From positions 1 to 9,507 of the forward strand of contig CADBQK010000442.1 of assembly GCA_902796775.1 (NCBI GenBank): a DNA stretch of 9,507 nucleotides, read 5' to 3'. The DNA comes from an uncultured Lachnospiraceae bacterium. GTDB taxonomy: Bacteria; Bacillota_A; Clostridia; Lachnospirales; Lachnospiraceae. Position 1 is the first letter of the stretch, and every line of letters starts with the position of its first letter. A model generated the notes under the pieces. That model did not search any database, was not told where the DNA came from, and saw nothing but the letters and a program-made list of their open reading frames with translations. The position numbers and the translations under genes were made by a program. This document shows positions 1-9,067 of this stretch, in pieces.

Positions 1-2
1 CC

Positions 3-191
3 GTGTTTATATGGCTTGCTGAAAACCTGGGAACGATCCTCGTTACGCTGGTATTGATCGTGATCGTGACCCTGATCATCCGGTATCTGATCAGAGAGAA
101 AAAACAGGGCAGATCATCATGCGGCGGGAACTGCGGTCATTGCAGTATGTGCGGAACATGCCATCAGAAAACTGCAGCTTTCGGACGATAA
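3..191 (+). CDS. FeoB-associated Cys-rich membrane protein (5' end at window edge)
   Basis: A 62-residue protein with one membrane helix (about residues 9-30), a basic stretch (REKKQGR), then a cysteine cluster: C40, C44, C47, C50 and C53. This is the layout of the small FeoB-associated Cys-rich membrane proteins often encoded right after feoB in Clostridia. They are presumed to help ferrous-iron uptake or metal handling at the inner face of the membrane, but their exact role is not established. The GTG at position 3 fits the usual N-terminus of the family (a few residues before xWLxENLGT). However, no ribosome site can be seen because the window starts here, so the gene could begin slightly upstream. 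feoB itself would lie to the left (inference). The gene is followed 12 bases later by a strong terminator, so it closes its operon. Confidence 0.8.
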   Translation: MFIWLAENLGTILVTLVLIVIVTLIIRYLIREKKQGRSSCGGNCGHCSMCGTCHQKTAAFGR

Positions 192-203
192 CCTTATCAT
201 TTC

Positions 204-241
204 AGGACCACCGGTTTGACCGATGGTCCTGTCCTGTTTTT
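204..241 (+). terminator. Intrinsic terminator after the Cys-rich gene
   Basis: AGGACCA (204-210) pairs with TGGTCCT (224-230). Inside it CGGT pairs with ACCG across a three-base loop, with one C/A mismatch between the two stems. A T-rich tail ending in TTTTT (237-241) follows. It separates the iron-related gene from the aromatic amino-acid operon, whose promoter starts 12 bases further on. Confidence 0.85.
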
Positions 242-252
242 CGAAAAAAGTG

Positions 253-281
253 TTGACAAGGAAAACGGATACTGTTAGTAT
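253..281 (+). promoter_or_regulatory. Promoter of the pheA leader/operon
   Basis: TTGACA (253-258), a 17-base spacer and TAGTAT (276-281). The -35 is a perfect match, the -10 matches five of six bases and the spacing is ideal. Transcription would start near 288, giving a leader of about 305 bases before the pheA start codon. It lies directly after the terminator of the preceding gene, as expected for the head of a new operon. Confidence 0.8.
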
Positions 282-302
282 TTTTACAAAACTGCGATAC
301 AC

Positions 303-370
303 AAAAAGGAGATCAACAGCCTTTTTTATAAGCCTGCAGTAAAGGATAAGTTTTTTTACCTTTGGCAGGC
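303..370 (+). promoter_or_regulatory. Two 5' hairpins in the pheA leader
   Basis: Hairpin A pairs AAAAAGG (303-309) with CCTTTTT (320-326). Hairpin B pairs GCCTGC (332-337) with GCAGGC (365-370) and AAAGG (341-345) with CCTTT (359-363), plus a few inner A-T pairs around a T-rich loop. Neither overlaps the leader-peptide ORF. Hairpin B is stable but is not followed by a T-run, so it does not look like a terminator. It may protect the 5' end, pause polymerase or set when the leader ribosome loads (inference). Hairpin A sequesters a good Shine-Dalgarno match (AAAGGAG, about 305-310) that has no start codon behind it at a usable distance. Confidence 0.45.
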
Positions 371-397
371 ATTTGGGAAGAGAGATACAGAATAAAA

Positions 398-490
398 ATG
401 AAACGCAGTCTTCAGTTTGCAGACATCTTCGGCTTTATGTTTTTCTTTAGCTTTACTGATACGGACAGTAAGGTTCATTCGCTATGCTGA
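398..490 (+). CDS. pheL: Phe-rich leader peptide of the pheA attenuator (30 aa)
   Basis: An ATG at 398 opens a 30-codon frame ending in TGA at 488-490. Seven codons are Phe (residues 7, 11, 13, 15, 16, 17 and 19), and residues 11-19 read FGFMFFFSF. The peptide is probably not functional as a protein. Its translation would sense charged Phe-tRNA, like E. coli PheL. Support comes from its position, between a strong promoter and a terminator in front of pheA, and from RNA pairings that are laid out as an attenuation model requires. The weak point is the ribosome site: the nearest purine run (GGGAAGAGAG, 375-384) ends 13 bases before the ATG, rather far. The symbol is used by analogy of role, not homology. 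Confidence 0.75.
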   Translation: MKRSLQFADIFGFMFFFSFTDTDSKVHSLC

Positions 491-496
491 AGATGT
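423..496 (+). promoter_or_regulatory. Anti-antiterminator stem (1:2) of the pheA attenuator
   Basis: Positions 423-433 pair with 486-496 in an unbroken 11-bp stem with one G-U pair. The 5' arm covers the codons just before and at the start of the Phe cluster; the 3' arm spans the leader stop codon. A ribosome stalled on the Phe codons at 440-448 would mask the 5' arm. The 3' arm overlaps both strands needed by the antiterminator (481-488 and 493-500), so the two folds exclude each other. Pairing was done by eye; no energy was computed. Confidence 0.6.
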
Positions 497-539
497 GAGA
501 AGACGATCAGGATTTCACATGGGGTGTGGCACATGAACC
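472..539 (+). promoter_or_regulatory. Antiterminator fold (2:3) of the pheA attenuator
   Basis: Three nested stems. GGTTCAT (472-478) pairs perfectly with ATGAACC (533-539), which is the loop of the terminator. After a 2x2 internal loop, 481-488 pairs with 523-530, the 5' arm of the terminator, in eight pairs including four G-U. Then 493-500 pairs with 513-520 in eight pairs with one G-U. The fold uses the terminator's own 5' arm and loop, so it prevents termination. A ribosome that reaches the leader stop codon (488-490) would cover its left side and free the terminator. Confidence 0.6.
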
Positions 540-560
540 GGTGCCGCACCCTTTTATTTT
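522..560 (+). terminator. Attenuator terminator upstream of pheA
   Basis: GGGTGTGGCAC (522-532) pairs with GTGCCGCACCC (541-551): eleven pairs with one G-U and an eight-base loop. TTTTATTTT (552-560) follows. It lies 33 bases before the pheA start codon, in the same direction, so it must be bypassed for pheA to be expressed. That makes it a regulatory terminator, not an end-of-operon one. Confidence 0.85.
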
Positions 561-592
561 ACGATCCGCAGGAGATCAGAACGGAGGGTATC

Positions 593-1696
593 ATGGATCT
601 GAATGAAGCAAGGGGTCAAATCAGGAATGTGGATCTGCAGATGAGAGAGCTGTTTCTGCAGAGGATGGAAGCCGTTCGTGCGGTTGCAGACTGGAAGAAA
701 GAGAGGGGGATTCCTATTGAAGACAAAGAACAGGAGAAGCGTATCATTTCAGAGCTTAGTCCTGCTGTAGAGGATGAAGCACTAAGGTCCTTCTATCTCT
801 GTTTTATCCAGGATGTCATGAATGTCAGCAAACAGTGGCAGCATCATCTTCTGAGTGGTCTTCGTGTAGCTTACAGCGGTGTGGAAGGTGCATTTGCGCA
901 TATTGCGGCGATGCGTATCTTTCCGGATGGGAAAAAGATACCCTGTCCTTCTTTTGAAGATGCCTATGGTGCTGTGGAAAGGGGCGAGTGCGATATTGCA
1001 GTACTTCCGATTGAAAACAGTTATGCAGGTGAAGTGGGACAGGTGCTGGATCTGATGTTTGCAGGAAGCCTTCATGTAAACGGAGTCTATGACCTGCCGG
1101 TTATCCAGAATCTTCTTGGACTGCCTGGTGCTCAGGCAGATCAAATCGAAACTGTGGTCAGCCATCCGCAGGCTTTGTCACAGTGCCAGCCATATATCAA
1201 GGAGCATCATTATCTTACAAGAAGTGTTTCCAATACAGCGATGGCTGCGAAAGAAGTGGCACAGGGCAATGATCTGTCTGTCGCAGCGATTGCAAGCGCG
1301 GAAACTGCTCAGCTCTATGGCCTGCAGGTGCTGGATCATGATATTAATGAGAACAGGATGAATACTACCCGCTTTGCTGTCTTTTCCAGAGTGGAATATC
1401 CCTTTGCAAACAGACGTGATAAGAGCGCATTTCTGCTCCTGTTTACAGTTAAGGATGAAGTTGGAGGGCTGGCAAAAGCGATCAACCTGATCAGTGCTTA
1501 TAATTACAATATGCGTGTACTTCGATCCAGGCCGATGCATGATCTTCCCTGGCACTATTATTTCTATGCCGAAGTGGAGGGAAATGACGGCTCCGAAAAT
1601 GGGCAGCGGATGCTCAGCGCACTGGGAGGCGTCTGCCCGATGGTGAAGGTTGTGGGACGGTATATTGCGGCTGAAAATACGCTGGCACAGGCCTGA
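593..1696 (+). CDS. pheA: Bifunctional chorismate mutase / prephenate dehydratase (P-protein)
   Basis: A 367-residue cytosolic enzyme that converts chorismate to prephenate and then to phenylpyruvate, the precursor of Phe. Residues 1-85 form an AroQ-type chorismate mutase helix bundle (R7, R24, K35, D44 and E48 sit where the E. coli active-site residues are expected; the E. coli Arg51 position appears to be Gln47). Residues 90-270 are prephenate dehydratase: VAYSGVEGAFAHIAA, PIENSYAGEV, SHPQALSQC and the catalytic TTRF at 258-261. Residues 279-358 are the ACT domain, with RSRPMHDLPW where E. coli has ESRP, so Phe feedback inhibition is likely. The ATG at 593 is chosen because GGAGGG (583-588) precedes it and the mutase domain starts there. 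An in-frame GTG at 524 lies inside the terminator stem and would add 23 unrelated residues. It is first gene of an aromatic operon and is controlled by the leader attenuator. Confidence 0.95.
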   Translation: MDLNEARGQIRNVDLQMRELFLQRMEAVRAVADWKKERGIPIEDKEQEKRIISELSPAVEDEALRSFYLCFIQDVMNVSKQWQHHLLSGLRVAYSGVEGAFAHIAAMRIFPDGKKIPCPSFEDAYGAVERGECDIAVLPIENSYAGEVGQVLDLMFAGSLHVNGVYDLPVIQNLLGLPGAQADQIETVVSHPQALSQCQPYIKEHHYLTRSVSNTAMAAKEVAQGNDLSVAAIASAETAQLYGLQVLDHDINENRMNTTRFAVFSRVEYPFANRRDKSAFLLLFTVKDEVGGLAKAINLISAYNYNMRVLRSRPMHDLPWHYYFYAEVEGNDGSENGQRMLSALGGVCPMVKVVGRYIAAENTLAQA

Positions 1697-1830: not shown

Positions 1831-2862
1831 ATGAGAATGGATTTCAGCCGGAAGCTGCCGGATCCAATGGAAACAAAAGAAATGTATCCTCTGACAAAGG
1901 AGATAGCATCTGCTGTCAGTAAGCGGACCGCAGAGCTGATGGAGATATTTTCCGGGAAGAGTGACAGGATCGCCCTGATCATTGGTCCCTGCTCTGCTGA
2001 TAACGAGGACAGTGTGATCGATTATATCTCAAGACTTGCTCCTGTTCAGGAGAAAGTAAAAGAAAAGATCCTGATCGTCCCCAGGATCTACACAAACAAA
2101 CCCCGTACCACGGGTGATGGCTATAAGGGACTGGTCCACCAGCCGGATCCCAATGCGCAGCCGGACCTTTTCAGGGGGATCATTGCCACACGTGAGCTGC
2201 ATATGCGGGCAGTAAAGGAAACGGGACTGGCCTGTGCAGATGAGATGCTGTATCCGGAGAATTATCAATATCTGGATGATCTGCTGGGATATGTAGCAGT
2301 CGGAGCCAGGAGTGTAGAGGATCAGCAGCACCGCCTGACAGCAAGCGCGATAGAATGTCCGGTCGGGATGAAGAATCCGACCAGCGGAGATCTGACCGTT
2401 ATGATGAACGGAATCATGGCTGCACAGCACCAGCATGATTTTATCTACCGCGGATGGGAAGGGCATTCTAAAGGAAATCCCTATGCACATGCGATCCTGC
2501 GCGGATACGTAAACCAGCAGGGCGTTGCGCATCCGAATTATCACTATGAGACCCTTCTGCATCTGGAGGAGCTGTATGATCGCTGGGAACTGAAGAACCC
2601 TGCTGTGGTCATTGACTGCAATCATTCAAACAGCGGTAAGAATCCGTTTGAGCAGCCCAGGATCATGAAAGAAGTCCTGCATTCGTGCAGCTGCAGTTCC
2701 GGAATCAGAAAGCTGGTAAAGGGCTTTATGGTAGAAAGCTATATTGAGGACGGAAACCAGCCGGTAGGCGGCGGTGTATACGGGAAGAGCATTACAGACG
2801 CCTGCCTTGGCTGGGAAAAGAGCGAAAGGCTGATCTATGAAACAGCCCAGATGCTTGCATAG
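1831..2862 (+). CDS. aroF: 3-deoxy-7-phosphoheptulonate (DAHP) synthase, AroFGH type
   Basis: A 343-residue enzyme that condenses phosphoenolpyruvate and erythrose 4-phosphate to DAHP, the first step of the shikimate pathway. It follows the E. coli AroF/G/H (type I alpha) pattern: GPCSADNEDS (52-61), KPRTTGDGYKG (90-100), GARSVEDQQHR (158-168), PVGMKNPTSGDL (177-188), IDCNHSNSGK (261-270), MVESYIEDGNQ (300-310) and YGKSITDACLGWE (317-329). The four metal ligands expected from the family are present: C54, H265, E302 and D323. Length is near the family norm. The ATG at 1831 has TAGGAG nine bases upstream. Placed after pheA, it would raise flow into the pathway when Phe is short. Whether Phe, Tyr or another product inhibits it cannot be read from the sequence. 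Confidence 0.95.
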   Translation: MRMDFSRKLPDPMETKEMYPLTKEIASAVSKRTAELMEIFSGKSDRIALIIGPCSADNEDSVIDYISRLAPVQEKVKEKILIVPRIYTNKPRTTGDGYKGLVHQPDPNAQPDLFRGIIATRELHMRAVKETGLACADEMLYPENYQYLDDLLGYVAVGARSVEDQQHRLTASAIECPVGMKNPTSGDLTVMMNGIMAAQHQHDFIYRGWEGHSKGNPYAHAILRGYVNQQGVAHPNYHYETLLHLEELYDRWELKNPAVVIDCNHSNSGKNPFEQPRIMKEVLHSCSCSSGIRKLVKGFMVESYIEDGNQPVGGGVYGKSITDACLGWEKSERLIYETAQMLA

Positions 2863-3797
2863 TGAAAGGAAAAGATGATCATGACACAGGAGAAAAAGAA
2901 TCTGTGCCTGATCCGGATTTGTATATGAAAGAATTAAAAGGCAATGATTCAAATCCTGCTTATACCAATACCAGACTGATCGGAACAGCTGCTATGCTGG
3001 CAGCTTCCTTCTGTTTCTCAACGGGCGGCCTTCTAATGAAATTGATTCCATGGAATCCGCTTGCTATTAACGGTGCACGGAATCTGATTGCATCTATAGT
3101 GATCGGTCTGTATATTCATGCTGTACATCACCGGATCAAATTTAACCTGACAGTGCTGATCGGGGCTGTTTCCATGGCTGGTGTGACGACCTGTTTTGCT
3201 ATTGCTAATAAAATGACCACTGCAGGCAATACGATCATCCTGCAGTATACAGCCCCTGTCTGGATCGTTATTTTCATGTTCCTGCTGTTTGGCAAAAAGC
3301 CTGCACGGACAGAACTGATCGCGATCGTGATCGTATTTAGCGGTATCCTCTGTTTCTTTTTTGAGGGACTTTCCACCGGGAAATGGCTGGGTGATCTGAT
3401 TGCCCTGTTTTCAGGGATTTTCTATGCCGGTGTTTTCATGCTGAATAATTTCGAAAAGGGAGATGCTATTTCATCTGTTTTTTTCGGACAGCTTGCCTGC
3501 GGGATCTGCCTTTCCCCGATGGTGCTGCGTGAAACCGTGTTTACGGGCAATGTCCTGGTCTGCATATTCTTTCTGGGGGCAGTGCAGGTTGGCCTGGCTT
3601 ATATCTTCTTTACGATCAGTACCAAATACACGGATCCGATCACAGCATCCATTATCAACGCACTGGAGCCCATCCTCAATCCGGTGCTGGTAGCGGTCTT
3701 CTATGGTGAAATGCTCGGAAGGCTGTCTTTGATCGGTGCAGCTATCGTATTGTGCGGCATCATGTACTACAATCTGAGGCATAAAACAGCAGGATAG
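2862..3797 (+). CDS. EamA/DMT-family transporter, possible aromatic amino-acid exporter
   Basis: A polytopic membrane protein of 311 residues from the GTG at 2862, or 290 from the ATG at 2925. About ten hydrophobic segments form two EamA repeats, roughly residues 40-166 and 175-305. The second repeat contains TDPITASIINALEPILNPV, typical of the drug/metabolite transporter superfamily. The first residues are hydrophilic and acidic, not part of the fold. The GTG overlaps the aroF stop by one base (TAGTG), suggesting coupled translation, but no ribosome site is obvious for it. The ATG at 2925 would also give a complete transporter. Known relatives such as YddG export aromatic amino acids. With pheA and aroF upstream, efflux of Phe or a pathway intermediate is a reasonable inference, but the substrate is not shown by the sequence. 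Confidence 0.85.
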   Translation: MKGKDDHDTGEKESVPDPDLYMKELKGNDSNPAYTNTRLIGTAAMLAASFCFSTGGLLMKLIPWNPLAINGARNLIASIVIGLYIHAVHHRIKFNLTVLIGAVSMAGVTTCFAIANKMTTAGNTIILQYTAPVWIVIFMFLLFGKKPARTELIAIVIVFSGILCFFFEGLSTGKWLGDLIALFSGIFYAGVFMLNNFEKGDAISSVFFGQLACGICLSPMVLRETVFTGNVLVCIFFLGAVQVGLAYIFFTISTKYTDPITASIINALEPILNPVLVAVFYGEMLGRLSLIGAAIVLCGIMYYNLRHKTAG

Positions 3798-4015: not shown

Positions 4016-5554
4016 ATGGAAAACAGGAATCTTATTCTTCAGATGAAAGAAATAACAAAGGAGTTCCCAGGTGTGAAAGCACTTGACAAGGTGTCTTTGA
4101 AAGTATCTGAGGGTTCGATCCATGCAATCTGCGGCGAAAATGGAGCAGGCAAGTCGACGCTGATGAATGTCCTGTCCGGAGTTTATCCGTACGGAAGTTA
4201 TGATGGACAGATTTTTTTCCGTGGGAAAGAAGTGCATTTCCGGAGTATTAAGGAGTCAGAACAGATCGGGATTGCGATCATTCATCAGGAACTGACTCTG
4301 ATTCCGGAGCTTTCGGTCACGGAAAATATTTTCCTGGGGAATGAGATCATCAGGAGGGGCCTGATAGACTGGGGAGAACAGAAACGCCGCAGTATAGAGC
4401 TTCTGGAAAAAGTAGGATTATCCATAGATCCGGATACACTGATCAAAAATCTGGGCGTAGGACAGCAGCAGCTTGTAGAGATCGCAAAAGCGCTGTCCAA
4501 GAATGTAAGTCTCCTGATTCTTGATGAGCCGACATCTGCTCTCAATGAGGATGATTCCGAAAACCTTCTTGAACTGATGCTTGGGCTTAAGAACAACGGG
4601 ATTACTTGTATCATGATCTCTCATAAATTAAATGAGATAGCAAAGATTTCCGATGCGGTCACAGTCATCCGGGACGGGTGTACAGTTGAAAGCTATCCAG
4701 TTCAGGCTGGTCATGTTGACGAGGACAAAATCATACGGGCAATGGTAGGGAGGCCTATCGCGAATCGTTACCCCCCTCATGAAGCACATCCGGGAGAAGT
4801 ATTATTTGAGGTATCCGGGTGGACGGTCGAAGATCCGAACATTCCGGGAAGAATGCTCTGCAAAAGTTCTTCTTTCTATATCAGAGAAGGAGAAATCGTT
4901 GGATTTGCTGGTTTAATGGGGTCGGGAAGAACAGAGCTGATGCGATCCCTGTTCGGAAAGAGTTACGGGATATTCCGCAGCGGATCAATCAGGATCCGGG
5001 GGAAGGAAGCCATACTGAATTCTGTGGAAGAAGCAATCAGCAGCGGCATAGCCTATGTTCCGGAAGACAGGAAGCAGCTGGGACTCAACCTGCTGGATTC
5101 TATCAGAAAAACGACAGTATCTGCCAATTTAAAGAAAATACTCAGTGGCTGGCTGCTGGATCCCGACAAAGAGCTGCAGGCAGCCCAGCAATACTGTAAA
5201 GAGCTGAGCATTAAAACGTCAGGTCCGGACGCCGGGGTCGCGACTTTGTCCGGTGGCAATCAGCAGAAAGTGGTTTTGTCCAAATGGCTGTTTACCGAAC
5301 CTTTGCTGCTCATTCTGGATGAACCTACGCGCGGAATTGATGTGGGTGCCAAATATGAGATATATAAGCTGATACATGAACTCGCCCGGCAGGGTAAGGC
5401 TATAATCATGGTTTCTTCGGAGCTCCCTGAGCTGCTCGGTGTTACGGACAGGATATATACGATCTGTGAGGGCTCTGTCACCGGAGAAGTGATGACGGGT
5501 GAGACAGATCAGGAGTCTCTGATGAAATTAATGACGAAAACTTCTGTGTCCTGA
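4016..5554 (+). CDS. mmsA: Sugar ABC transporter ATP-binding protein (MglA/XylG/GguA type)
   Basis: A 512-residue double ATPase that powers sugar uptake from the cytoplasmic face of the membrane. First domain: Walker A GENGAGKST (40-48), Q-loop Q91, signature LGVGQQQ (146-152), Walker B LLILDEP (166-172), switch H203. Second domain: degenerate P-loop GLMGSGRTE (299-307), with Arg in place of the Walker lysine; signature LSGGNQQ (411-417); Walker B (431-437); and SSEL where a switch histidine would be. One active and one degenerate site is normal for this CUT2 family. The ATG at 4016 has TAGGAG (4004-4009) before it. It is followed 42 bases later by the permease. Homologues transport xylose, galactose, arabinose or glucose; the exact sugar cannot be assigned. 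The symbol follows the multiple-monosaccharide (ChvE-GguAB) type suggested by the partner genes. Confidence 0.9.
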   Translation: MENRNLILQMKEITKEFPGVKALDKVSLKVSEGSIHAICGENGAGKSTLMNVLSGVYPYGSYDGQIFFRGKEVHFRSIKESEQIGIAIIHQELTLIPELSVTENIFLGNEIIRRGLIDWGEQKRRSIELLEKVGLSIDPDTLIKNLGVGQQQLVEIAKALSKNVSLLILDEPTSALNEDDSENLLELMLGLKNNGITCIMISHKLNEIAKISDAVTVIRDGCTVESYPVQAGHVDEDKIIRAMVGRPIANRYPPHEAHPGEVLFEVSGWTVEDPNIPGRMLCKSSSFYIREGEIVGFAGLMGSGRTELMRSLFGKSYGIFRSGSIRIRGKEAILNSVEEAISSGIAYVPEDRKQLGLNLLDSIRKTTVSANLKKILSGWLLDPDKELQAAQQYCKELSIKTSGPDAGVATLSGGNQQKVVLSKWLFTEPLLLILDEPTRGIDVGAKYEIYKLIHELARQGKAIIMVSSELPELLGVTDRIYTICEGSVTGEVMTGETDQESLMKLMTKTSVS

Positions 5555-5596
5555 GTCAAGACAGAAATCAGAGAAATATAGGGGGAGATACAGATC

Positions 5597-6835
5597 ATGA
5601 AGGGAATACAAGAGTCATTGGGTGGGAGAATCCAGCGGTATACAATGTCCATCGCTCTTGCAGTACTGATCGTTTTTTTCCAGATTGCTTCAGGAGGGAG
5701 GATGCTGACAACATCCAATTTCCAGAATCTGATCTGCGGTAATGCATATGTACTCATTCTGGCTCTGGGAATGCTTATGGTGATCGTAATCGGGCAGATC
5801 GATCTTTCTGTAGGATCTGTTGCAGGATTCACTGCAATGACAATGGCAATTTGTGCCACCAGATATCATATGCCGTGGATCCTGGCGGTCCTGATCGCAC
5901 TTCTGATCGGACTGGCGATTGGAGCCTGGCATGGGTTTTTCCTCGCAAAGCTCGGGATTCCGGGATTTATTACTACACTGGGAAGCATGCTGATATTCCG
6001 CGGTGGAGTGCTTTGGATTTCGAAGTCGATCTCAGTGCCTGTACCGGGTCAGCTCCGTTTCTTCTCTTCCGGATATTTCCCGGAAGTAGGCCCGGCTTTT
6101 ACACATGCCAATAATCTGACTCTGCTTCTCGGTATCATTGAGATCTTCATCTTCTTGTACTATGAGAATCGCCATTATAACAGTTCAGCAGATATTCAGG
6201 GCAGAAAGATTCCGTTTCCTTTTTTCGTTGCGAGACTTGTGTTCATATCCGGTATACTAGCCTATTTCTCCTTCCTGTTCGCCAAAGGGCGTCCCGGGAC
6301 TTCATTTCCTGTTCCCGGACTGATACTTATCCTGCTTGTTATCATCTATCATACGATTACGCAGAAAACGCCCTTCGGACGGCATGTATATGCTGTTGGC
6401 GGAAATAAGAATGCAGCAGCCCTTTCCGGTGTCAATGTTAAGAAAACTTATTTTCTTGTCATGATGAATATGTCCCTGCTTGCTGCAGTTGCAGGTATAT
6501 TGTTTGCCGGACGCGCAACTGCTGCGGGTCCATCCGATGGCAACTCATGGGAAATGGACGCGATCGCTTCCGTATTCATAGGGGGTGCGGCTGTTTCAGG
6601 CGGTGTCGGAACAATTATGGCTACCATGATAGGCGGAATGGTGATGGCAGTCCTGAACAACGGTCTGATGCTGATGGGTGTTGGCGCAGACAAGACCCAG
6701 ATTATAAAAGGCTTTGTTCTTCTTGCGGCGGTAGCAGTCGATGTACACAACAAGAATGCGGGACGTTCATCGATCATCGGCAAACTGTTTCCTTCCGGAA
6801 AAGAAGAGAAGGAGGGAAATTCTGATGAAGAATAG
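5597..6835 (+). CDS. mmsB: Sugar ABC transporter permease (GguB/MmsB type, CUT2)
   Basis: A 412-residue membrane protein forming the sugar channel. Hallmarks of the BPD_transp_2 fold are visible: GQIDLSVGSVAGF (66-78), GIPGFITTLGSM (120-131), GRHVYAVGGNKNAAALSGV (261-279) and EMDAIASVFIGGAAVSGGVGT (319-339). It is longer than the usual 320-residue CUT2 permeases because of an extra central section with a polar loop (YENRHYNSSADIQGRK, 188-203) between membrane segments. That extra section is characteristic of the GguB/XylH-like group acting with ChvE-type proteins. The C-terminus is charged (GKEEKEGNSDEE). The ATG at 5597 has GGGGGAGA (5581-5587) upstream. Its last eleven bases overlap the binding-protein gene, which indicates coupled translation. 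Confidence 0.9.
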   Translation: MKGIQESLGGRIQRYTMSIALAVLIVFFQIASGGRMLTTSNFQNLICGNAYVLILALGMLMVIVIGQIDLSVGSVAGFTAMTMAICATRYHMPWILAVLIALLIGLAIGAWHGFFLAKLGIPGFITTLGSMLIFRGGVLWISKSISVPVPGQLRFFSSGYFPEVGPAFTHANNLTLLLGIIEIFIFLYYENRHYNSSADIQGRKIPFPFFVARLVFISGILAYFSFLFAKGRPGTSFPVPGLILILLVIIYHTITQKTPFGRHVYAVGGNKNAAALSGVNVKKTYFLVMMNMSLLAAVAGILFAGRATAAGPSDGNSWEMDAIASVFIGGAAVSGGVGTIMATMIGGMVMAVLNNGLMLMGVGADKTQIIKGFVLLAAVAVDVHNKNAGRSSIIGKLFPSGKEEKEGNSDEE

Positions 6836-7916
6836 GTCATTACTTTTTCTGTTCGCAGTCATAGTTGCAGGTATAATAACGGTGTCCAGTCTCTTCCCCA
6901 GAGAAGGGGAGAGGGATGGCGGCCGTAGTGAACAGGCTGGTTTTGATGCGGATGCATCGATTGGTGTCTCTATCCCCTGGCTGGGGACACAGAACTGGAT
7001 GGAGGCTGAGAAGTTTTTTGATGAGCAGCTCAGAGAAGCTGGGTTTTCCTCCATCATTCAGGCAGCCGACCAGAAGGTTTCTCAACAGCAGCAGCAAATT
7101 GAGTCTATGGTCGAAAATGGGGTGAAGGTGATCGTCGTGGCTCCGGTAGATGGATCTCAGCTGGGATCTGTTCTTGAGAAGGCTAAGAATGCGGGCGTAT
7201 ATGTGATTGGATATGACCGCTATATAGATAATACGGAAGCGGTAGATTGTGTGGTACAATACGGCAGTTTGGAAACCGGGAGAAAACAGGGACAGGCACT
7301 GCTGAACGGATTGAAGGATCTCAAGGGTAAAGGGCCTTATAATGTCGAATTGTTTGCCGGAGGTCCTGCAGATCCGAATGCACCTCTGTTCTTTAACGGA
7401 GCCATGGAGATCCTCCAGCCTGAGATTGATGCAGGAAATATTATCGTAGTTTCCGGGCAGAATAACTTCACCAAGTGTGCAACAGAGGACTGGGACAATG
7501 GTAAAGCGCAGAAGCGGATGGAGTCGCTCCTTGCCGGCAATTACAGTAAAAAGGAGATTGATGGCGTCCTTTCACCGAATGACGGGATCGCACGTGCCAT
7601 TCTGACAGCCTGCGAAGATGCAGGGCAGTCTGTTCCGGTGGTGACAGGACTGGATGCTGAAAACGAGTCTGTGAAACTGGTCTGGGAAGGAAAACAGTAC
7701 TGCACTGTTGCCAAGCCGACGAAGGAACTGGTGGCAAAGACTATGGAAGTAATCCGTTCACTTCAGAGAGGTGATGGAGTGCCGGAAGCAGATGCCACAG
7801 TTGATAATGGAAAGAAGCAGGTCCCTGTTTTCGAGCTTGCACCTGTTATCGTTACAAAAGATAACGCCAGAGAAGTATTTGCTGATGATGAAGAACGTAT
7901 GCAGCTGCTGAAATAG
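6825..7916 (+). CDS. chvE: ChvE-like sugar-binding protein of the ABC transporter
   Basis: A 363-residue extracytoplasmic sugar-binding protein of the periplasmic-binding-protein 4 family. It starts with a hydrophobic segment (about 5-24), followed by a charged linker and the binding domain. Recognisable parts are IGVSIPWLGTQNW (46-58), VKVIVVAPVDGSQLG (100-114), GYDRYI (129-134), SPNDGIARAI (250-259) and GLDAENESVK (275-284), where aspartates and arginines commonly contact the sugar. The ATG at 6825 is chosen because AAGGAGGG (6809-6816) lies eight bases before it; an in-frame ATG at 6741 would add 28 residues that are permease sequence in another frame. Odd point: there is no lipobox cysteine, although Gram-positive binding proteins are usually lipoproteins, so it may be held by an uncleaved anchor or released. 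It is the last gene of its operon. Confidence 0.88.
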   Translation: MKNRSLLFLFAVIVAGIITVSSLFPREGERDGGRSEQAGFDADASIGVSIPWLGTQNWMEAEKFFDEQLREAGFSSIIQAADQKVSQQQQQIESMVENGVKVIVVAPVDGSQLGSVLEKAKNAGVYVIGYDRYIDNTEAVDCVVQYGSLETGRKQGQALLNGLKDLKGKGPYNVELFAGGPADPNAPLFFNGAMEILQPEIDAGNIIVVSGQNNFTKCATEDWDNGKAQKRMESLLAGNYSKKEIDGVLSPNDGIARAILTACEDAGQSVPVVTGLDAENESVKLVWEGKQYCTVAKPTKELVAKTMEVIRSLQRGDGVPEADATVDNGKKQVPVFELAPVIVTKDNAREVFADDEERMQLLK

Positions 7917-7991: not shown

Positions 7992-8040
7992 AAAAAGGGT
8001 CTGCCGCATGATCTGAAAATGCTGCAGACCCCTGTTTTAT
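7992..8040. terminator. Bidirectional terminator between convergent operons
   Basis: GGGTCTGC (7997-8004) pairs with GCAGACCC (8024-8031) and GCAT (8006-8009) pairs with ATGC (8019-8022), closing a nine-base loop. On the + strand TGTTTTATT follows. On the minus strand the run of five A at 7992-7996 reads as TTTTT. It serves both the sugar operon and azlCD, whose last stop codon is at its right edge. Confidence 0.88.
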
Positions 8041-8375
8041 TACAGGAAAGGAATACCTGTCCGGATCAGTATCATATAGCAGACGGTTCCGGCTATGATG
8101 GAGAGATACATATTCCTGCGGAAGATCTGCAGGAGAACGACGACCAGACAGGAAATGATCTCGGGGATTCCGTAAGGTGTTTTTGTGAAAGAAGTGTTCC
8201 GGAGACAGTAGATTACGAGAATGGTCATAATAGCCGGGGGAAGGACATGTCCCAGGTATTTCATCGTCATGGGGAGCGGCTTTTTCCCAAAGAGAAGGAA
8301 GGGCAGAGCACGCAGTCCCCAGGTGACCAGTGCGACAATACAAATGACTGCAGCAGGATAAACGACTGCGTTCAT
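8040..8375 (-). CDS. azlD: Branched-chain amino-acid exporter small subunit AzlD
   Basis: A 111-residue hydrophobic protein of about four membrane segments, with the AzlD family pattern: GLRALPFLLFGKKPLP near residues 20-35, then YLGHVLPPAIMTILVIYCLR (41-60). AzlD works with AzlC in the membrane to export branched-chain amino acids, as with BrnFE/YgaZH pairs. Its ATG overlaps the azlC stop codon (ATGA, 8372-8375). An AAGGAGGT ribosome site lies within the last azlC codons, so the two are translated together. Length is normal for the family. Its stop codon touches the bidirectional terminator. Confidence 0.9.
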   Translation of the reverse strand: MNAVVYPAAVICIVALVTWGLRALPFLLFGKKPLPMTMKYLGHVLPPAIMTILVIYCLRNTSFTKTPYGIPEIISCLVVVLLQIFRRNMYLSIIAGTVCYMILIRTGIPFL

Positions 8376-9067
8376 TCAAGCACCTCCTTGCGCATGATCT
8401 GCCTGCGGGCCAGGAGCAGGAATAACAGACAGCTGGCGAGTGCCGGGATCAGGAAATAGTCCGGACCCAGCAGAAGATACAATACCACGGAGCAGAAGAG
8501 GGCAATCAGGAAAGGAAGCTTGCTGCGGTACTCTCTCCACTGGTTGATGACAACAACCAGGAACAGGGCGGTAGCGGAAAAATCGATTCCTCTCATATCG
8601 AATTGCAGGTACTTTCCTGCACAGGACCCGGCAAAGCATCCGAATATCCAGTACAGGTGATTCTGCAAGGCAATGAAAAAGGCTGCCCGGTCCTGGTCCA
8701 GTCCTTCTTCATCCGGATAACGGACGGAACATAATAACGAATATGTTTCATCAGTCAGGGACAGGACCATATAAGGATACCGCCATCCCATTTTCCGGAA
8801 TCTATCCACAAATCCGATGCCGTAAAAAATATGGCGTCCATTGATAAAAAATGTCATGATCGCAAGTGTATACAAGGGAGCTCCTGACGTCAGTAAAGGA
8901 ACCATTACGATCTGCATGGAGCCGGCATAGATCAGCAGAGCAGAGAGCATCGAAAGGATTACCCCGTACCCTGCCTCACTCATCATGATGCCGAAAGCAA
9001 TTCCGATGAACAGATATGTAAAGAAGATCGGAATTGTCTGTTTCAGAGCGAATCGAAACTCTTGCAT
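8372..9067 (-). CDS. azlC: Branched-chain amino-acid exporter large subunit AzlC
   Basis: A 231-residue membrane protein of the AzlC family. Visible signatures are YAGSMQIVMVPLL (47-59), FFINGRHIFYG (73-83), LTDETYSLL (104-112) and QNHLYWIFG (135-143). With AzlD it forms an exporter for Val, Leu, Ile and, in some members, analogues or Met; the exact range is not visible. The ATG is at 9067 (minus strand); GGAG lies eight bases before it, and this site is part of a duplicated 14-bp segment. A promoter is predicted at 9128-9156. No Lrp-type or other regulator is next to it in the window. azlCD runs towards the sugar operon and is unrelated to it in function. Confidence 0.92.
   Translation of the reverse strand: MQEFRFALKQTIPIFFTYLFIGIAFGIMMSEAGYGVILSMLSALLIYAGSMQIVMVPLLTSGAPLYTLAIMTFFINGRHIFYGIGFVDRFRKMGWRYPYMVLSLTDETYSLLCSVRYPDEEGLDQDRAAFFIALQNHLYWIFGCFAGSCAGKYLQFDMRGIDFSATALFLVVVINQWREYRSKLPFLIALFCSVVLYLLLGPDYFLIPALASCLLFLLLARRQIMRKEVLE

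Follow-up and report, generated by a model that had tools for sequence, protein, structure and literature searches.

The pheA attenuator of E. coli and Salmonella is built from the Phe-rich leader pheL and alternative 1:2, 2:3 and 3:4 structures, and is represented in Rfam by the proteobacterial family Phe_leader. The usual amino acid attenuator of Firmicutes is the T-box, an RNA structure that recognises uncharged tRNA and needs no translation to do so, and the amino acid genes of these bacteria are usually credited to T-boxes and repressors. His leader attenuators have been predicted in the Bacillus cereus group, in some Eubacteriales including C. difficile, and in Erysipelotrichales (PMC2965389, PMC9413887), and for hisZ of C. 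difficile and bacilli PMC4833913 cites Lopatovskaya 2010; as outlined in those reports, they rely on ribosome-mediated attenuation as proposed here, but with His codons and his genes. The ilv-leu operon of S. aureus, in the account given by PMC5794164, has a Leu-rich attenuator peptide, a terminator and an antiterminator with support from mutants, and so is alike in its parts, differing in that it serves branched-chain amino acids and belongs to Bacilli. Finally, PMC8632094 describes uORFC-13-1, a candidate Phe-reading uORF with a terminator before aroF, from 24 sequences of Acholeplasma or unknown environmental organisms. On that published description it shares with our locus a Phe uORF, a terminator and an aromatic pathway gene outside Proteobacteria, and is set apart by preceding aroF only, not pheA, and by not coming from Clostridia.

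The locus described here lies in a 9,507-nt stretch of DNA from an uncultured Lachnospiraceae bacterium, called the window below. It resembles the pheL system in its Phe-rich leader ORF, its predicted 1:2, 2:3 and 3:4 structures and the enzyme encoded downstream, and differs from it in belonging to another phylum, in having no Rfam match and in the succession of pheA and a DAHP synthase gene (Table 1).

Table 1. Coordinates of the leader, its RNA elements and the genes downstream, in window positions.
Feature	Position	Strand	Remarks
Promoter-like site	253..281	+	TTGACA-17-TAGTAT, extended TG; consensus match only, 10 of 12
Leader peptide ORF	398..490	+	ATG...TGA, 30 codons + stop, 7 Phe
Strand 1	423..458	+	423-433 with 486-496, 449-458 with 466-475 (1:2; would block strand 2)
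Control region	428..454	+	six Phe codons (428, 434, 440, 443, 446, 452) in nine
Strand 2, including antiterminator 5' arm (472-478, 481-488, 493-500)	466..500	+	spans leader stop 488-490
Strand 3, antiterminator 3' arm (513-520, 523-530, 533-539)	513..539	+	predicted by folding; duplex p 0.005
Intrinsic terminator (3:4)	521..552	+	12 pairs, -23.3 kcal/mol, U tract; then TTTATTTT
pheA, chorismate mutase-prephenate dehydratase	593..1696	+	chorismate mutase and prephenate dehydratase domains above Pfam cut-off
aroF-type DAHP synthase (type I)	1831..2862	+	profile matches
EamA-family transporter	2862..3797	+	profile matches

In pheA, an ACT match falls just under the Pfam cut-off, and NCBIfam likewise names the gene chorismate mutase-prephenate dehydratase, with all scores below the NCBIfam cut-offs. 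The aroF gene is probably in the same operon as pheA, and the EamA-family transporter gene possibly so. Upstream, a gene for an FeoB-associated Cys-rich membrane protein (3-191) precedes a hairpin at 203-231 that by eye resembles a terminator, so the pheA unit seems to start from its own promoter. The remainder of the window holds a GguA/GguB/ChvE-like multiple sugar ABC transporter (4016-7916), whose named families score below curated cut-offs, and, on the minus strand, an azlC-azlD pair of the branched-chain amino acid export type (8040-9067).

The preliminary description of this DNA had pointed to a 30-codon ORF with seven Phe codons, six of them within nine residues, and translation of 398-490 confirms it: the encoded peptide is MKRSLQFADIFGFMFFFSFTDTDSKVHSLC, with Phe at residues 7, 11, 13, 15, 16, 17 and 19, and hence a cluster spanning residues 11-19. 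Its placement between a promoter-like site and a terminator, ahead of a Phe biosynthesis gene, is likewise as first described, and so is the rarity of such a cluster by chance. An ORF of 9-60 amino acids in which six of nine residues are Phe arises in only 2 of 5000 dinucleotide shuffles of 288-592, one with six of any single amino acid except Met arises in 12 of 5000, and the runner-up among the 205 short ORFs of the window has four Phe in nine. Shine-Dalgarno pairing of the leader is weak (-4.6 kcal/mol, 12 nt from the ATG), compared with -10.0 kcal/mol for pheA and a median of -8.0 for the leaders of 48 relatives.

The terminator at 521-552 is the only terminator-like site that the scan of window positions 1-1200 found. 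Site numbers are near shuffle expectation (three promoter-like sites against 1.6, one terminator-like site against 1.0), and it is therefore the placement of these sites, not their number, that counts. The predicted antiterminator pairs 472-478 with 533-539, 481-488 with 523-530 and 493-500 with 513-520, and has 523-539 in common with the 5' arm and loop of the terminator. Its energy is -27.3 kcal/mol against a shuffle mean of -16.7, with 2 of 2000 shuffles of 457-520 as low, and the duplex of its arms alone has p 0.005 against shuffles; the count of its pairs with the terminator side, unlike the energy, is reached by 136 of 2000 shuffles. In energy the alternative pairing is well above chance, and its geometry is right for an attenuator. 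The 1:2 structure is matched in folding by 16 of 1000 shuffles of 459-500. Between the promoter-like site and the leader ORF, at 332-370, there is also a strong hairpin that carries seven consecutive U and has no Rfam match on its strand.

Folding was also followed with a ribosome placed on the leader, its footprint assumed to be 14 nt. With the A site at any of the six clustered Phe codons, the antiterminator is the structure adopted by the transcript ending at base 542; once the ribosome is at stop codon 488, the antiterminator is impossible and the terminator alone remains. The minimum free energy structure of the full-length leader consists of the 1:2 structure and the terminator side by side. 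In the complete RNA, even with a stalled ribosome, the terminator fold (-37.0 kcal/mol) is more stable than the antiterminator fold (-27.3) by about 10 kcal/mol, so the switch must be kinetic and dependent on timing. When the ribosome and the 3' arm of the terminator are both absent, the minimum free energy structure is the antiterminator, not 1:2, and energies alone therefore do not predict termination without translation. Three features of a classical attenuator are seen in sequence and folding: an ORF with control codons, an intervening terminator, and an antiterminator that is freed or covered according to the position of the ribosome.

We believe that 398-490 very likely encodes the leader peptide of a ribosome-mediated transcription attenuator, by which expression of pheA, and probably also of aroF, would depend on charged tRNA-Phe. 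Under Phe shortage, the leading ribosome would stall at the Phe codons of 428-454 and keep strand 1 (423-458) from pairing; strand 2 (472-500) could then pair with strand 3 (513-539) before the terminator 3' arm is synthesised, and RNA polymerase would read through the antiterminated leader. When Phe is plentiful, the ribosome would get to the stop at 488-490 and cover strand 2, and the terminator at 521-552 would form. Translation of 398-490, stalling, the RNA switch and its dependence on Phe are what we infer from this arrangement. A Phe-dependent, ribosome-mediated attenuator had been proposed at the outset, and the antiterminator, together with the many Phe/Tyr leaders found before related pheA genes, supports it as the best reading.

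For comparison, PheA relatives were taken from a contig search (39 loci; L028 and L037, in which the gene start is missing, were not used), from related genomes and from 40 further regions; the loci are the closest PheA matches of each search and not a random sample. The records of the 39 loci are metagenome-assembled genomes named as Clostridia of several families, with L020 named Spirochaetaceae. Three duplicates and L014, whose upstream sequence is too short, were excluded. This left 161 upstream regions, that of the window among them, each no longer than 350 nt, in which we looked for ORFs of 9-60 codons that have a start and a Shine-Dalgarno match. At least five F/Y in ten residues are present in 48 regions, at least six in 39 and at least seven in 22. 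The corresponding means in 30 shuffles of the whole set are 2.5, 0.57 and 0.1 (maxima 4, 2 and 2), and the reverse complements of the 161 regions give 8, 3 and 0. Of 171 amino acid pairs, FY ranks first, with its 39 regions at six in ten followed by 17 for the next pair. A single rule, set post hoc, of at least four F/Y in ten and a terminator of -12 kcal/mol or lower starting within 90 nt of the ORF end is satisfied by 48 of the 161 regions and by none of their 161 reverse complements.

The peptides are diverse, for example MKKTNMGSSFYYYAFFRFYRGFSFDARRQTAERT (L009), MFSSYYYFYYFTKAMDRNVTFGGLI (L055) and MKKYFAFYYFINKDCLYAN (L166), and Phe-only examples are MSNPISRAAASFRFVFVRLFGGRFFGVQASFAVRT (L012) and MRLSNVFFFFTPKAMC (L027). 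Judged by their sequences, these candidate leaders form a class that is mostly Phe plus Tyr, with the Phe-only leader as its rarer form. The set of 49 leader loci used below was made by adding L012 and L027, which are below the cut-off, by eye and dropping L087, which is above it; the single rule includes L012 and L027 without such a choice. A second batch of 13 loci (L181-L189 and L191-L194, from 25 rows, the rest of which are repeats of earlier genomes or rows for L175-L178), scanned without the Shine-Dalgarno or terminator filter, contains eight with at least six F/Y in ten, in six different sequences.

Terminators were sought within 200 nt of pheA as hairpins of -12 kcal/mol or lower with a U run, the hairpin picked not being the expected one in at least three leader loci. 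They are present in 47 of 49 leader loci, in 12 of 42 leaderless loci without a close same-strand frame upstream and in 4 of 70 that have one; the reverse complements of the three groups give 9, 4 and 11. Leaders themselves precede 40 of the 82 pheA genes without a close upstream frame and 9 of the 79 with one. For the folding energy from the F/Y codons to the terminator loop, 23 of 46 leaders do better than shuffles at p 0.05 (L013, whose stretch is too short, and L024 and L064, without a hairpin, being left aside). Counting the pairs that the upstream region makes with the terminator arm gives such a result in 3 of the 46 and is uninformative as a statistic.

Pairing of an upstream arm with the 5' side of the terminator, in tests that exclude L013, L131 and L168 because the hairpin picked is not the expected one, is stronger than in shuffles at p 0.05 for 14 of 44 leaders and has p above 0.5 in 15 of 44; after thinning to one leader per shared five-residue word, 6 of 23 reach p 0.05. 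In 28 of the 44 the arm overlaps the stretch predicted to lie under a ribosome at the stop codon, and in several groups differing arms are matched to differing terminators (e.g., L113, L121, L136). The codons after the F/Y cluster read Ala-Met-Asp, Ala-Met-Glu or similar in some of the Phe/Tyr leaders, and the GCGATGG stretch behind this motif pairs with the terminator arm in L050, L055, L058, L061 and L147. The motif thus reflects an RNA constraint appearing as a peptide motif.

A check suggested at the outset was whether alignment of related upstream regions shows the control codons kept with synonymous changes, and its answer is mixed. Within the leader group of L009, L010, L013 and L031, each of the six pairs differs by 3-7 amino acid changes that leave the F/Y codons untouched; the F/Y codons themselves have 0-2 synonymous changes per pair, and a single two-codon indel preserves the reading frame. 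Two more diverged groups do change F/Y codons, with 0-6 amino acid changes there per pair in L025/L049/L053/L056/L064 and 1-3 in L113/L131/L136/L145. In L008, kin of L009, a deletion removes most of the F/Y cluster and the promoter and terminator sequences are kept. No homologue of the window's own leader peptide was found among the relatives compared.

The distribution of leaders is similarly mixed. L015, L012 and L031 (68-69% identity) have leaders, but L001-L007 and L026 (68-71% identity) have no such leader ORF. A tree of 112 PheA proteins was built by a quick method and contains several long branches. It places the window beside L039 (SH-aLRT 89), where a terminator is present but an F/Y ORF cannot be recognised; L015, which has a leader, comes second by path length. 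Leader presence on this tree requires at least 21 changes. Among 40 distant pheA genes (29-36% identity, taken from a longer list), none has five F/Y in ten, and 35 lie behind a close same-strand frame; the leader as a general feature of pheA in the class was accordingly rejected.

An imperfect palindrome of 20 bp, TTARCGGTTTAAAGTGCTAA, lies some 40-110 nt ahead of pheA in the leaderless L001-L007 and L026. With at most two mismatches it occurs once per genome in the 6 genomes searched, always just before pheA. HisR, a TrpR-family repressor, has operators of 20 bp according to the passages on it in PMC9413887, and the like size of the palindrome suggests that a repressor may replace the attenuator in these leaderless relatives.

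T-box matches occur in related genomes, and the leader of the window has none. All 22 related genomes searched (21 with a pheA leader, and G1129 without) contain matches to RF00230, above the family cut-off in 18, and among the matches listed for these genomes none lies before pheA on its strand; in G074 a match near pheA is on the opposite strand. At the Rfam gathering score, neither a T-box nor Phe_leader nor any other family is found in the whole window, and 57 pheA loci, leader and leaderless, show no T-box. A search of 200-650 at E values up to 10 gives only three weak minus-strand sRNA matches. A T-box or other known RNA at the leader was rejected on these Rfam searches of the window, of 200-650 and of the 57 loci.

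The U-rich stretch could still be an RNA element, such as part of a riboswitch or a protein-bound attenuator, with the Phe codons a by-product of its U-richness. Such an element would suit the leader RNA structure, which is far above shuffles (z -4.0 and -4.6), and the strong extra hairpin at 332-370, ahead of the ORF. We nevertheless regard it as very unlikely: the permissive Rfam search offers no candidate beyond the minus-strand sRNA matches, relatives add in-frame Tyr codons behind a start codon and a Shine-Dalgarno match, the pairs also expected from U-rich RNA are rarer at six in ten (FS in 17 regions and FL in 11, against 39 for FY), and the F/Y codons of the L009 group vary synonymously only. 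The leader might instead be a fortuitous ORF ahead of a constitutive or partly read-through terminator, as the weak ribosome-binding site and the missing ORF before the nearest PheA (L039) would allow. Against this stand the shuffles (2 of 5000 for the cluster and 2 of 2000 for the antiterminator energy), the arm duplex, the 48 of 161 regions set against none of 161 reverse complements, and the same arrangement ahead of dozens of related pheA genes. On these grounds a chance origin was rejected, and we give it even less credence than an RNA element.

Equally improbable is that the leader acts on pheA translation, by occlusion of the ribosome-binding site or reinitiation, and not on termination. 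Attenuators of this kind are described in general terms in the relevant part of PMC9413887, but here the terminator and its U tract end about 25-30 nt ahead of the Shine-Dalgarno site of pheA, with 102 nt between the leader stop codon (488-490) and pheA. Transcription attenuation by a translated leader remains the reading that we prefer.

Operon content could be read in 38 of the 49 leader loci, ten having no downstream DNA and L077 ending inside pheA. An aroB gene follows pheA in 33 of the 38 (by tblastn; in L050 named by NCBIfam), aroF follows it in the window, L012, L027 and L167, and a prephenate dehydrogenase-like gene in L157. There is no tie between the leader and aroB, which stands behind pheA in 66 of 82 leaderless loci as well. 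Tyr-free leaders are found in 3 of 4 operons with aroF and 1 of 33 with aroB in the 49-locus set (Fisher p 0.002, uncorrected for kinship), and under the single rule in 3 of 4 pheA-aroF operons, window included, and 1 of 32 pheA-aroB operons (p 0.002, again uncorrected for kinship). This link, which rests on four operons with the window among them, hints that the control codons are fitted to the pathways supplied by the operon. We consider it fairly likely that the pheA operons of this clostridial enzyme lineage carry a large undescribed class of leader attenuators, mostly Phe plus Tyr, in bacteria with T-boxes at other genes, with a codon mix following the operon (Phe plus Tyr with aroB, mostly Phe alone with aroF) and with repeated gain, loss or replacement of the sensors.

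Among the papers listed, in which subscription journals are thinly covered, none describes a Phe or Phe/Tyr leader upstream of pheA in Clostridia; related cases may be listed in Lopatovskaya 2010. Within that scope the initial suggestion of an undescribed or little-described Phe attenuator in Firmicutes stands. Leader attenuation as such has earlier been described in Firmicutes, for His and for branched-chain amino acids. The mechanism is ordinary and its place is new: very probably a Phe attenuator, one member of a wide clostridial class. Gut and rumen Clostridia seem to use an enterobacterial style of control at pheA and T-boxes elsewhere, and the leader class predicts dozens of small genes. 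The Phe-only and Phe plus Tyr leaders form a natural series for the matching of control codons to operon content, and the reason why lineages exchange one amino acid sensor for another can be sought by comparison inside a single gene family.
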